In this document: positions 11,549 to 33,214 of the stretch, piece after piece
How positions within the stretch are numbered: the first letter of the stretch is position 1
Layout: each line of letters opens with the position of its first letter
Assembly (NCBI RefSeq): GCF_023566055.1
Contig: NZ_JALIQP010000004.1
Coordinates: 124,001-188,000, forward strand
Length of the DNA stretch: 64,000 bases
From: Halosolutus amylolyticus
GTDB taxonomy: Archaea > Halobacteriota > Halobacteria > Halobacteriales > Natrialbaceae
Reading direction: 5' to 3'
Notes under the pieces: generated by a model
What the model was told of the DNA's origin: nothing
What the model saw: only the letters and a program-made list of their open reading frames with translations
Database searches by the model: none
Made by a program: the position numbers and the translations under genes

Positions 11549-13066
11549 GTGACGACGGGACGAGACGACGACCCGACGATCGAACTCCGGTACGAAGACG
11601 GGACGGTCCGCGTCGACGGACTGGATCCGGCGCTCGAATCGGCGATCCGCGAGCGCGTTCCGGCCCTCGAGACGGACCCACGAACGGACGGCTGGCGGGT
11701 GCCTGCGTTCCGCTACGCCGCCCTCCGATCGACGCTGGAGGCGATCGACGCCGCGGTCGTCGATCACGTGCTCGATCTCGCTCCCGTCCCGACCCTCCGG
11801 TCGGCGTACGAACTTCGCTCGTACCAGGAGACGGCGCTGTCCGCGTGGCTCGAGACCGATCGGTGGAACAGCACTGCTGGAACGACGTCGGAACCCACCG
11901 GCGATCCGGCTCGCGCACCCGCGGGCGTCCTCGAGTTGCCGACGGGCAGCGGCAAGACCGTGATCGCGATCGCGGCCATCGAACGCCTCTCCGTCCCGAC
12001 GCTCGTCGTGGTCCCGACGATCGACCTGCTCGAGCAGTGGGAGCGCGAACTCGAGCGGGAGTTCGGCGTTCCCCACTCGAACGCCGATTCTGGCGTTCGT
12101 CGGGAGTCGTCCGACAGCGTCGAGATCGGCCGCTTCGGCGGCGGGGAGCAGCGACTCGGACCGCTCACCGTCTCGACGTACGACTCGGCGTACCTCAAGG
12201 CCGACTCGATCGGCGATCGGTTCGGCCTGGTCGTCTTCGACGAGGTCCACCACCTCGGCGGCGAGGGCTACCGCGAGATCGCTCGCCTGCTCGCCGCACC
12301 CGCCCGACTCGGACTCACCGCCACGTTCGAACGGCCCGACGGTGCCCACGACGTGATCGAGGACATTGTCGGGCCGCTCGTCCACCGGGTCGATCCCGAC
12401 GACCTGGCCGGGACCCACCTGGCACCGTACGACATCAAGCGCCTCGAGGTCTCGCTCACGCCCGACGAGCGCGAGGAGTACGAGCGCAAACAGGAGGTGT
12501 TCACGAACTACCTCGCCCGCTCGAACATCGACATGCGAAGCGGGTCGGACTACCAGGAACTCGTGAAGCGATCGGGCTCCGACCCCGCGGCGCGCGAGGC
12601 CCTGCTCGCACGCCAGCGGGCCCGCGCGATCGTGTACGGGAGCGAGGCCAAGATCGACGCCCTCGGGAGAATCCTCGCGGATCACCGCGGCGATCGTACG
12701 ATCGTCTTCACGGCGCACAACGACCTCGCGTACGACGTCAGCGAGCGGTTCCTGATCCCGACGATCACCCATCAGACGGGAACAGCAGAACGCCGAGAGG
12801 TTCTGGAGCGGTTCCGGCAGGGGACCTACACTCGGATCGCCACCTCGAACGTGCTCGACGAGGGTGTCGACGTGCCGGACGCCTCCGTGGCAGTCGTCCT
12901 CTCGGGTAGCGGCAGCGAGCGCGAGTTCGTCCAGCGACTCGGCCGGATCCTCCGTCCGAATGCTGACGGCGGCCGGGCGATCCTGTACGAGGTCGTCGCC
13001 AGCGACACCAGCGAGGAACGGGTCGCCGAGCGACGGCGGGAGGACGCGCTGTATGATAGCCACTGA
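11549..13066 (+). CDS. XPB/Rad25-type DEAD/DEAH-box DNA helicase
   Basis: 505 residues, GTG start. Residues 1-85 are an N-terminal damage-recognition-like domain. RecA-like domain 1 has LPTGSGKT (130-137) and the DEVH box (231-234). LTATFERPDG is motif III. RecA domain 2 has TIVFTAHNDLAYDVSERF, a TSNVLDEGVDVPDASVAVV block and QRLGRILRPN (motif VI). This is the archaeal XPB helicase, which works with the Bax1 nuclease in DNA repair or transcription-coupled processing. Bax1 is encoded 3.8 kb downstream on the same strand rather than next to it. The last codons AGC CAC and the TGA stop lie inside the palindromic element at 13056, so the native C-terminus may have been altered. Confidence 0.93.
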   Translation: MTTGRDDDPTIELRYEDGTVRVDGLDPALESAIRERVPALETDPRTDGWRVPAFRYAALRSTLEAIDAAVVDHVLDLAPVPTLRSAYELRSYQETALSAWLETDRWNSTAGTTSEPTGDPARAPAGVLELPTGSGKTVIAIAAIERLSVPTLVVVPTIDLLEQWERELEREFGVPHSNADSGVRRESSDSVEIGRFGGGEQRLGPLTVSTYDSAYLKADSIGDRFGLVVFDEVHHLGGEGYREIARLLAAPARLGLTATFERPDGAHDVIEDIVGPLVHRVDPDDLAGTHLAPYDIKRLEVSLTPDEREEYERKQEVFTNYLARSNIDMRSGSDYQELVKRSGSDPAAREALLARQRARAIVYGSEAKIDALGRILADHRGDRTIVFTAHNDLAYDVSERFLIPTITHQTGTAERREVLERFRQGTYTRIATSNVLDEGVDVPDASVAVVLSGSGSEREFVQRLGRILRPNADGGRAILYEVVASDTSEERVAERRREDALYDSH

Positions 13067-13133
13067 AACGGTTTACACACCGATCGTAAAGCCGTCCTGC
13101 GATCGGGTGTGCATTGACTTTCAGTGGCTACTA
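13056..13133 (+). repeat. Palindromic TIR element, copy A
   Basis: A 78-bp element. The left end TAGCCACTGAAA (13057-13068) is the exact inverse of the right end TTTCAGTGGCTA (13119-13130). Inside is a second stem, CACACCGATCG with CGATCGGGTGTG, that pairs with one bulged G. A 7 x 7 internal loop separates the stems, and a loop of about 13 bases closes the structure. A second copy, inverted on the chromosome, is at 31793-31872 with about seven differences. The left terminal repeat supplies the Ser-His-stop end of the XPB gene. It could be a MITE, a mobile palindromic unit like bacterial REP/ERIC sequences, or a 3' UTR hairpin; I cannot tell which. Confidence 0.85.
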
Positions 13134-22191: not shown

Positions 22192-23022
22192 ATGAGCCAG
22201 GACCGTTCTCCGGAGACCTGTCCGACCACCAACGGAATGCCGATGCTCGGTCTCGGCACGTGGCAAAACACCGACCCCGACCAGTGCGCCGAGAGCGTCC
22301 GGACGGCCCTCGAGATGGGGTATCGTCACGTCGACACTGCCCAGGCCTACGAGAACGAGGGCGACGTCGGCGAGGGCCTCGCACGCGCCGACGTCGATCG
22401 GGAGGACGTCTTCCTCGCGACGAAGATCTGGATCTCGAACCTCGCCCACGACGACGTCCTCGAGACGGCCCGGGAGAGCCTCGATCGCCTCGGCGTCGAT
22501 TCCCTCGACCTGCTGTACGTCCACTGGCCCGCCCGGACGTACGAGCCCGACGAAACCCTCTCGGCCTTCTCGAAACTGTACGACGAGGGGTTGATCGAGA
22601 ACGTCGGCGTCAGCAACTTCCTGCCGGAGCAACTTGAGGCGGCGATCGAGATCTGTGACGCGCCGATCGTGGCGAACCAGGTCGAACTGCATCCGATGCT
22701 CCCTCAGCCCGACCTTCGCGAGGCCTGCGACCGTCACGACGTCGACGTCGTCGCCTACTCGCCGCTGGCCCGCGGTGCGGTCTTCGACCAGCCCACCATT
22801 CAGGAGGTCGCCGACAAACACGACGCGAGCGAAGCCCAGATCAGCCTCGCCTGGCTCCGCGAGAAAGGCGTCACCGCGATCCCGAAAGCCACCGGCGAGG
22901 CCCACATTCGTGACAACTGGGAGTCACTGGCGGTCGAGCTAGACGCCGAGGACGTCGACGCGATCGATTCGATCGAGGAGCGGAGTCGGAAGGTCGACCC
23001 GGACTTCGGACCGTGGAACTGA
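22192..23022 (+). CDS. Aldo/keto reductase
   Basis: 276 residues from the ATG at 22192; an in-frame GTG at 22174 is less likely. It is a complete AKR barrel. The catalytic tetrad is visible as Asp and Tyr in RHVDTAQAYENEGDVGEGL, Lys in VFLATKIW and His in LDLLYVHWPA. NVGVSNFLPEQLEAA and VVAYSPLARG contact the nicotinamide, and the C-terminal KATGEAHIRDNWESL contacts NADP. It reduces aldehydes or ketones with NADPH; the substrate is not known. It is similar to the 2,5-diketogluconate/YeaE-type enzymes. It shares the strand and a short spacer with the PAC2 gene. Confidence 0.95.
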   Translation: MSQDRSPETCPTTNGMPMLGLGTWQNTDPDQCAESVRTALEMGYRHVDTAQAYENEGDVGEGLARADVDREDVFLATKIWISNLAHDDVLETARESLDRLGVDSLDLLYVHWPARTYEPDETLSAFSKLYDEGLIENVGVSNFLPEQLEAAIEICDAPIVANQVELHPMLPQPDLREACDRHDVDVVAYSPLARGAVFDQPTIQEVADKHDASEAQISLAWLREKGVTAIPKATGEAHIRDNWESLAVELDAEDVDAIDSIEERSRKVDPDFGPWN

Positions 23023-23093
23023 CGGTCCAGTAACCTATCGCTCGCGAAGAACAATCAGGAACGTTTACGGTACGTCGGCTTTTTGGCTCGCGT

Positions 23094-31224: not shown

Positions 31225-31307
31225 CCGGGGGACAGTCCGCCGGCCCGACCGCCGCGACGTAGGCGACCGGGCCGACAGTATTTCATACGGTTTACTGTAC
31301 GTCATTT

Positions 31308-31343
31308 CCGGCGCAACCGCCGCCCGGATCGCGGTTGCGCCGG
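31308..31343. terminator. Strong inverted repeat between membrane and cupin genes
   Basis: A 13-bp perfect inverted repeat, CCGGCGCAACCGC (31308-31320) and GCGGTTGCGCCGG (31331-31343), with a 10-base spacer. It is preceded by a smaller one, ACAGTA/TACTGT (31275-31280, 31293-31298). It lies 84 bases past one stop and 50 bases before the cupin ATG. No T-tract follows, so it could be a terminator-like 3' hairpin or a regulatory site for the cupin gene. Confidence 0.45.
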
Positions 31344-31392
31344 TACATCGGTACAGCAATCCGTATCAGTCGGGCCGTCGAACCCAACGCGT

Positions 31393-31722: not shown

Positions 31723-31792
31723 GTCCCACCACGCGTCGATCGGGATCACGAAAAACCGGGCCGACTACCTGCGGTTTCGCTTCTCGGCGCTA

Positions 31793-31872
31793 TAGTAGCC
31801 ACTGAAAGTCAATGCATACCTGATCGCAGGACGGCGTTGCGATCAGTGTGTAAATCGTTTCAGTGGCTACTA
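31793..31872 (-). repeat. Palindromic TIR element, copy B
   Basis: An 80-bp element bounded by perfect 15-bp terminal inverted repeats (TAGTAGCCACTGAAA at 31793-31807 and its inverse at 31858-31872). Read on the minus strand it aligns over its whole length with copy A at 13056-13133, with about seven substitutions, so both copies face the same way as the gene they follow. Its right end provides the codons AGT AGC CAC and the TGA stop of the stomatin-like gene. Its internal stem differs from copy A by a compensatory C-G to T-A change. Confidence 0.87.
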
Positions 31873-33035
31873 TTGTCCGCTCCGCCGTCGCCGTCGCTCC
31901 CGCCGTCAGTCTCCCGATCGGCCCGGGTGCCGCTCGACGTCTCCGAGACGCTCTCGATCTCGCCGGGCTGGCTCGAGACGTCGCCCTCCTTGATCGCCTT
32001 GGCCTCCTGTTCCATCGCCTCGACGTCGACGGTCGACTCCGCCTCGATCTCGCCGATGATCTCGCTGATATCGTCCAGGCCGATCAGCTCGCGGGTTTCC
32101 TCGTCGAACTCGAGGCTCTCGAGTTGACCATCCCGTTCGGCGACGTCGCTTCCCGAGAGGTGTTTGCCGTAGCGGCCGATCATCGAGGACAGTTCCTGGG
32201 GAAGCACGAACGTCGTCGACTCGCTCCCACCGATCTCGGTCAGGGCGTCCATCCCCTTGTCGATGACCGCCCGCTCGCCCATCGATTCGGCCGATCGGGC
32301 CCTGAGGACGGTCGAGATGGCGTCACCCTGCGCCTCGAGGATCTCGCTTTGCTTCTCCCCCTGGGCGCGGATGATGTTCGACTGCTTGTCGCCCTCTGCC
32401 TTCTCGATCGCGCTGCGGCGTTCACCCTGCGCCTCGAGGATCATCGCACGGCGGCGCCGTTCCGCGGAGGTCTGCTGTTCCATCGCTCCCTTGACGTCGC
32501 GGGACGGCGTCACCTCGCGGACCTCGACCGACTCGACGCGGATCCCCCACTCGTCGGTGGGTTCGTCGAGTTCCGTTCGAATGCGTTCGTTAATCATCTC
32601 GCGCCGACTCAGCGTGTCGTCGAGTTCCATGTCGCCGATCACGGCCCGGAGGGTCGTCTGGGCGAGGTTCGACACGGCGCGCTCGTAGTCGTCGACCTCC
32701 AGGAACGCCCGTTTGGCGTTCATGACCCTGATGTAGACGACCGCGTCCGCGGTGACCGGCGAGTTGTCCCGCGTGATCGCTTCCTGGGACGGGACGTCGA
32801 TCGTCTGCGTGCGCATGTCGAACGTGTACACGCGCGAGACGAACGGCGGGACGATGTTGAGTCCCGGCTCCAGCAGCTTCCGATACTCCCCGAAGACCGT
32901 GAGCGCGCCCCTGTTGTACGCGTCGACGATCTCGACCATCGACCAGACGGTGACGATCGCGACGGCCAGCACGAGGCCGCCGACGGCCAGCGTGGGATCG
33001 CCGACTTGCAGGGGTGATGTGACAGGTGTTACCAT
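31860..33035 (-). CDS. SPFH/Band 7 (stomatin/prohibitin) membrane protein
   Basis: 391 residues from the ATG at 33035 (MVTPVTSPLQVGDPT). One N-terminal membrane helix (TLAVGGLVLAVAIVTVWSMV) is followed by the SPFH domain: LTVFGEYRKLLEPGLNIVPP, RTQTIDVPSQEAITRDNSPV and WGIRVESVEVREVTPSRDV. Then comes a long coiled coil rich in Ala, Glu and Arg (repeats of EAQGERRSAIEKAEGDKQS type). Such proteins form membrane scaffolds and often pair with NfeD, which is not adjacent here. The C-terminus is low-complexity (TDGGSDGDGGADNSSH). The final Ser-His and stop lie in palindromic element copy B. Confidence 0.94.
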   Translation of the reverse strand: MVTPVTSPLQVGDPTLAVGGLVLAVAIVTVWSMVEIVDAYNRGALTVFGEYRKLLEPGLNIVPPFVSRVYTFDMRTQTIDVPSQEAITRDNSPVTADAVVYIRVMNAKRAFLEVDDYERAVSNLAQTTLRAVIGDMELDDTLSRREMINERIRTELDEPTDEWGIRVESVEVREVTPSRDVKGAMEQQTSAERRRRAMILEAQGERRSAIEKAEGDKQSNIIRAQGEKQSEILEAQGDAISTVLRARSAESMGERAVIDKGMDALTEIGGSESTTFVLPQELSSMIGRYGKHLSGSDVAERDGQLESLEFDEETRELIGLDDISEIIGEIEAESTVDVEAMEQEAKAIKEGDVSSQPGEIESVSETSSGTRADRETDGGSDGDGGADNSSH

Positions 33036-33214
33036 TACTGAATGAAGGGGCCGGAGCGGAATAACGCTTGGCCCAACACCTGGTCCCGACGTCGGGAGGA
33101 CGGTTCGGACGCCGGGCACACCGACGCAGGTGGCCGCGTCCCGATCGGTGCGATCGACGGGACGTCCCGTTCGAAAGGAGTGGCTTACTATGGGTCCCGA
33201 AACGGTACCGAGCG

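Follow-up and report, generated by a model that had tools for sequence, protein, structure and literature searches.

The RUP element of pneumococcus is a non-coding repeat of about 100 bp with around 100 copies per genome, TA-bounded ends and a TA target, for which a base-paired secondary structure has been described and whose ends resemble those of IS630-Spn1, the proposed mobiliser (PMC2229807, PMC3049150). The Correia or NEMIS elements of Neisseria span 107-155 bp and combine inverted ends with a terminal TA, a target duplication and a long hairpin (PMC2229807). SMR-A and SMR-B of the haloarchaeon Haloquadratum walsbyi are transposase-free repeats of 80-110 bp with inverted ends and many copies, which were reported to have neither a target duplication nor a related transposon (PMC3119063). 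REP sequences are characterized as palindromes of 20-40 bp with a GTAG tag at one end (PMC3733652).

Here we describe an 80-bp repeat in a window of 64,000 nucleotides, located on contig C4 of the Halosolutus amylolyticus genome (4.6 Mb). Like RUP with IS630-Spn1, it is a small non-coding repeat with TA ends, IS630-like termini and base pairing, whereas its sequence and host domain are different, it targets mostly CTAG with a duplication that is fixed by empty sites, and its likeness to the IS ends is short; by analogy, the element would work like RUP. With Correia/NEMIS it shares the inverted ends with terminal TA, the target duplication and the hairpin, but not the sequence, and while the 107-bp Correia form fuses open frames, the right (R) end of the element provides a stop (SH*) in both window copies. 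The SMRs match it in haloarchaeal host, size, inverted ends, high copy number and absence of a transposase, but differ in that our element has a TA duplication and a related transposon, a distinction that is based on the SMR description. We conclude with considerable confidence that the element is a non-autonomous cut-and-paste MITE of the IS630/Tc1-mariner type, with terminal inverted repeats starting with TAG and insertion at the TA of CTAG; the cut-and-paste mode is inferred. It appears to be a new, undescribed family of a known kind of genome parasite: no description was found in the part of the literature that was searched, a literature search with the end sequence returned unrelated papers only, and the paper on the Natrialba magadii genome mentions neither MITEs nor inverted repeats.

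Two copies of the element at gene 3' ends

Searching the window for TAGTAGCCACTGAAA with up to three mismatches gave four matches, compared to 0.12 expected, and none of 100 shuffles reached this number. Both ends of copy B are exact over 15 bp (Table 1), as claimed in a sequence-only reading of this locus, and copy A has one exact end and one with two mismatches. The same reading had estimated about 71 identical positions out of 78 between the copies and an equal gene-relative orientation; in element orientation we count 72 of 80, and both genes indeed enter the R end. The element spans 80 bp (TAG...CTA), is bordered by a TA target duplication, whose right half has decayed to GA in copy A, and is without coding capacity.

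Table 1 Features of the element copies in the window and element copies that hold a second repeat. G000 denotes the Halosolutus amylolyticus genome.
Feature	Position	Strand	Basis or remark
Element copy B	31793..31872	+ (L end to R end)	80-bp limits set by empty sites
Copy B left terminal inverted repeat (L end), TAGTAGCCACTGAAA	31793..31807	+	sequence search
Copy B right terminal inverted repeat (R end), exact complement of left	31858..31872	-	sequence search
Left TA of copy B target duplication (C-TA, then element)	31791..31792	.	sequence and duplication rule from empty sites
Right half of copy B target duplication, decayed to TT (element, then TT-G)	31873..31874	.	sequence and G001 empty site
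Copy B inner stem 5' arm, one bulged base	31813..31828	+	folding and covariation
Copy B inner stem 3' arm	31838..31852	+	folding and covariation
Stomatin-like (SPFH/Band_7) gene	31860..33119	-	ends ...ADNSSH*
Element copy A	13054..13133	- (L to R)	end search and alignment
Element end sequence, TAGTAGCCACTGAAAGTCAATGCACAC
L046, element copy holding second repeat	G000:C2 ~22926-23076
L048, element copy holding second repeat	G000:C1 ~456430-456589
L061, element copy holding second repeat	G000:C5 ~148505-148667

The last codons and the TGA stop (31860-31862) of the stomatin-like gene come from the R end of copy B. Its orthologue in a genome of the same genus (G001), which is without the element, encodes a Band_7 protein ending in ...GSDQR; the insertion changed this tail to ADNSSH, which supports the earlier suggestion that taking a new stop at this position would cost little. 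Copy A likewise ends the tail of its upstream gene as ...EDALYDSH* (...VAKRRR to ...VAERRREDALYDSH), and the SH that closes both tails results from the sequence AGC CAC TGA of the R end. Annotators can draw on this to revise the 3' ends of genes that run into ...SH*. In annotated plasmid sequence of Natrialba magadii (250 kb), 16 copies were compared with the gene tables. Three of these overlap the 3' end of a gene, one directly adjoins such an end and 12 are intergenic; since none of the 16 is located inside a gene body, the placement fits a parasite that is tolerated outside genes.

Copy number and distribution among haloarchaea

The exact paired-end pattern gave 24 copies in the Halosolutus amylolyticus genome and none with the reversed-pattern control, and a looser pattern detected 105 ends compared to three control matches. 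A genome-wide search placed the element at about 40 sites, and all searches of the genome together indicate about 50 copies. The repeat is short (80 bp, well within the <500 bp of MITEs), non-coding and multi-copy. Nearly all extracted copies are 80 bp long (TAG...CTA), and six are identical over the full 80 bp, which points to a recent spread. The unpaired ends that were inspected in this genome belonged to copies in which one end had decayed, to variants with a longer interior or to copies split by another repeat, and no transposase gene was found between matching ends among them. In three longer variants (L047, G000:C3 ~144562-144673; L058, G000:C4 ~312708-312819; L059, G000:C4 ~375299-375407) the inner-stem arms are separated by an enlarged loop of about 30 bp.

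According to the sequence-only reading, absence of copies from all other genomes would speak against a mobile element. The element is present in 28 of 61 relatives and in 98 of 292 genomes sampled across the class, some of which contain more than 100 candidate copies each, and in 57 haloarchaeal plasmid records, including those of Natrinema, Haloarcula, Natronorubrum, Haloterrigena, Halomicrobium and Natrialba (two of the genomes, G027 and G029, were recognised as Natrialba magadii and Haloterrigena turkmenica, as the match coordinates agree with the plasmid records). One widespread short palindromic repeat of Natrialbaceae and Haloarculaceae is thereby explained as a mobile family. Phage records gave only chance-level matches, and 19 single-end matches in viral contigs, all of low GC content and with one end only, were likewise judged to be due to chance. 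In G021 the element also occurs in tandem, with two copies spaced by about 89-91 bp (C15:51837-52011, C84:74446-74620, C50:7395-7571), which suggests insertion beside an existing copy or tandem duplication.

Empty sites define a TA duplication, usually within CTAG

Empty sites and direct repeats at the edges, which had been proposed as checks on mobility, were both found in related genomes. G001 keeps both genes flanking copy B without the element and is 82 bp shorter at this locus: GCG-C-TA-[80 bp]-TT-G-TCCG here corresponds to GCG-C-TG-G-TCCG there (empty site GCGCTGGTCCG). Filled and empty alleles were further compared among three genomes (g61; one genus, Halomicrobium-like by plasmid coordinates; 400 kb each), in which 14 copies were located and five gave filled/empty pairs with flanks that are 88-99.5% identical. 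CGGTCTA[80 bp]TAGTTC at G089 308670 pairs with the empty G100 allele CGGTCTAGTTC, and GAGATA[80 bp]TAGTAGT at G100 522043 with the empty G149 allele GAGATAGTAGT, the flanks of the latter being 98.8/99.5% identical. The three further sites keep the 4-bp spacing; at two of them the empty allele differs by a single substitution (CTCG, CCAG), and at the third the ends have decayed. The empty allele reads CTAG in a Haloarcula pair and CTAC in a Halomicrobium plasmid pair. Two other Halomicrobium plasmid pairs (L205, L213) are exceptions, with empty alleles that do not contain a 4-bp NTAG either and that we tentatively read as later small deletions or precise loss. A bulk comparison with G001 and G002 gave few usable junctions apart from copy B, because the intergenic regions are too diverged, and Haloarcula hispanica and CBA1115 have all nine plasmid copies in common, so that there are no empty sites between them.

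From the filled/empty pairs with 4-bp spacing we conclude that the 80-bp element inserts with duplication of TA, usually within CTAG and sometimes within ATAG or a similar tetramer, and its polymorphic occupancy in related genomes demonstrates that it moves. In the Halosolutus amylolyticus genome, TA is found on both sides of 26 out of 42 copies, 10 of which show C-TA..TA-G. Duplication of TA in CTAG is the habit of IS630 and Tc1-mariner relatives, and its combination with the preference for CTAG sites is the signature of IS630/Tc1-mariner transposition. CTAG is strongly depleted in the window (19 seen, compared to 197 expected from base composition or 53 from trinucleotides), yet it is the tetramer at which the clean empty sites define the insertion rule.

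A haloarchaeal IS630 element as candidate helper

A search with the IS630 catalytic domain, together with end inspection, revealed an IS630 element in haloarchaea that is about 1055 bp long and has two ORFs. Its junctions read C-TA/TAGTAG...CTACTA/TA-G in dozens of loci, and the same ends were seen at most of another 80 loci taken from named haloarchaea. The copy in the Halosolutus amylolyticus genome (G000:C7, L253) has ends matching 16/16 and encodes an orfA of 179 aa and an orfB of 163 aa, both of which score above the cut-off for NF033545, with PF13358 matched as well. In orfB, D86 and E121 are invariant in eight copies with DD34E spacing; by the sequence models and these copies, the candidate helper is an IS630 transposase with DDE/D catalytic residues. 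At G000:C7:169096-170264 the intact IS630 copy adjoins a broken, inverted relative of 61% identity.

The MITE and this IS630 element have the ends TAGTAG / TAGTAAC, the CTAG target and the TA duplication in common and differ in length and coding content, in the inner end bases and in the MITE interior, which is without clear relation to the IS. In Natrialba magadii (locus L250), this IS630 element interrupts a MITE copy at a CTAG, with TA duplicated, and the intact MITE copy L076 carries the corresponding CTAG (GTAACTAGTTGCAG); from this we conclude that both obey the same insertion rule. The earlier expectation that a transposase gene with matching ends exists was thus borne out in part: such a gene is present in the same genome, outside the window as had been supposed, and agrees in the outermost bases and the target rule, but only 10 of 15 positions match overall (TAGTAGTCGTTAGAA vs TAGTAGCCACTGAAA). 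The alignment score of the left (L) end with the consensus of IS end 1 is 11, compared to 2.4 ± 1.4 for shuffles (0/5000 reach it), a likeness to which the first six bases contribute most (beyond base 6, P 0.036); the R end and IS end 2 have TAGTAAC in common and little else, with no significant similarity past base 6. The remaining IS630 groups of these genomes (L263, L270) were rejected, as their ends are different. Across the 292 genomes, MITE and IS630 co-occur (both 37, MITE only 61, IS only 30, neither 164; odds ratio 3.3, P 2.6e-5, which ignores relatedness), and within the family the association is not significant (26/35/4/10, P 0.26).

Movement by another TA-duplicating transposase family (e.g. 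IS5-type), with a convergent likeness to the IS630 ends via the common target, would be in line with the limitation of strong end similarity to the outermost 6-7 bases and with the MITE-rich genomes G010, G021 and G063, in which the catalytic-domain search detected no IS630 of this group. We consider it quite unlikely, since the outer bases, the left/right asymmetry (TAGTAG vs TAGTAAC), CTAG and the TA duplication are common to the MITE and the IS630 group, and no other element with such ends was found, every unpaired end inspected in this genome being a decayed or interrupted MITE copy. Judged from these sequence comparisons, the MITE very probably owes its movement to an IS630-type enzyme whose gene lies elsewhere. 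As the end likeness is short and the co-occurrence is not significant within the family, our high confidence refers to the IS630 type, while the group of L253 as the actual helper is a moderately favoured candidate. In the most likely mechanism, the haloarchaeal IS630 element would provide its IS630-family transposase in trans, and this enzyme would bind both MITE ends and excise the MITE, which would then be inserted at a new CTAG with duplication of TA. Copies elsewhere, empty sites, the TA duplication and a candidate transposase in the same genome all support the MITE-like reading that had been proposed for the locus. A transposase-free haloarchaeal repeat is thereby linked, tentatively, to a specific IS630 group, and the MITE could serve as a small, testable donor for IS630 transposition in haloarchaeal genetics.

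Folding and covariation of the two stems

The folded element has two stems of 15 bp, a terminal and an inner one, and the copy B strand reaches -23 kcal/mol (z -7.6) as DNA and -39.4 kcal/mol (z -8.4) as RNA. In 39 copies, which come from many genera, standard pairs occupy 95.6% of all pair cells and 93.5% of the terminal-stem cells, the latter as in the terminal inverted repeats of a MITE. Cells in which both sides have changed number 37, compared to 12.7 in shuffles and ≤5 in slid controls, figures that are not probabilities, as the shuffles ignore relatedness. The double-changed pairs are 8/73, 10/71 and 13/68 in the terminal stem and 29/53, 30/52 and 36/46 in the inner stem. Coevolution of the terminal stem is expected for two ends that are read by one enzyme; the compensatory changes of the inner stem are not accounted for by transposase-bound ends. 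They could reflect selection on the folded form, which we regard as unlikely; the fold would then serve as a single-stranded or cruciform substrate of transposition, or the MITE would act as a mobile 3' end that terminates or protects host transcripts. If true, the MITE would distribute finished gene ends, stop codon and hairpin included, among haloarchaea.

The strong fold, the compensatory changes in both stems with the three inner-stem pairs, and the position of the window copies at or near gene 3' ends would also suit a dispersed hairpin that functions in regulation or as RNA (a terminator, a 3'-UTR element or a REP-like palindrome) and is kept by structural selection. This explanation is very unlikely, because close relatives are empty at orthologous sites, which shows that any single copy can be dispensed with, paired ends are to be expected of a transposon whose two ends are bound by one enzyme, and no Rfam family reached its threshold (best STnc450, 25.1 bits vs cut-off 37). 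A Haloquadratum-type small mobile repeat with ends unrelated to transposons, no target duplication and an unknown mobiliser, with which the size of 80-110 bp, the inverted ends, the high copy number and the haloarchaeal host (PMC3119063) as well as two empty alleles compatible with an 86-bp insertion without duplication agree, is hardly tenable in view of the TA duplication at precise empty sites and the resemblance to IS630 ends. A GTAG-tagged REP palindrome was ruled out as well, given the length of 80 bp, the same tag at both ends and the TA duplication.

Neighbouring dispersed repeats

A second dispersed repeat lies 420 bp from copy B (31283-31368), with the inverted ends TACGGTTTACTGTA / TACGGATTGCTGTA and a TCA direct repeat at its flanks. 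Its copies are numerous both here and in related genomes, and it resembles a further MITE that duplicates 3 bp. The second repeat (ends TACGGWTTRCTGTA) is also nested in three copies of the 80-bp element (Table 1), i.e. a MITE within a MITE. Many loci of G021 and G061 hold a third dispersed repeat (GCGGTGGCGCGCGCC...GTGCGAGGGATGAG...GAGGACGTGGAAATCC), which is about 125 bp long, and in G021 both of its orientations are found around one copy of the element (L067 ~1380-1500, ~1800-1920).
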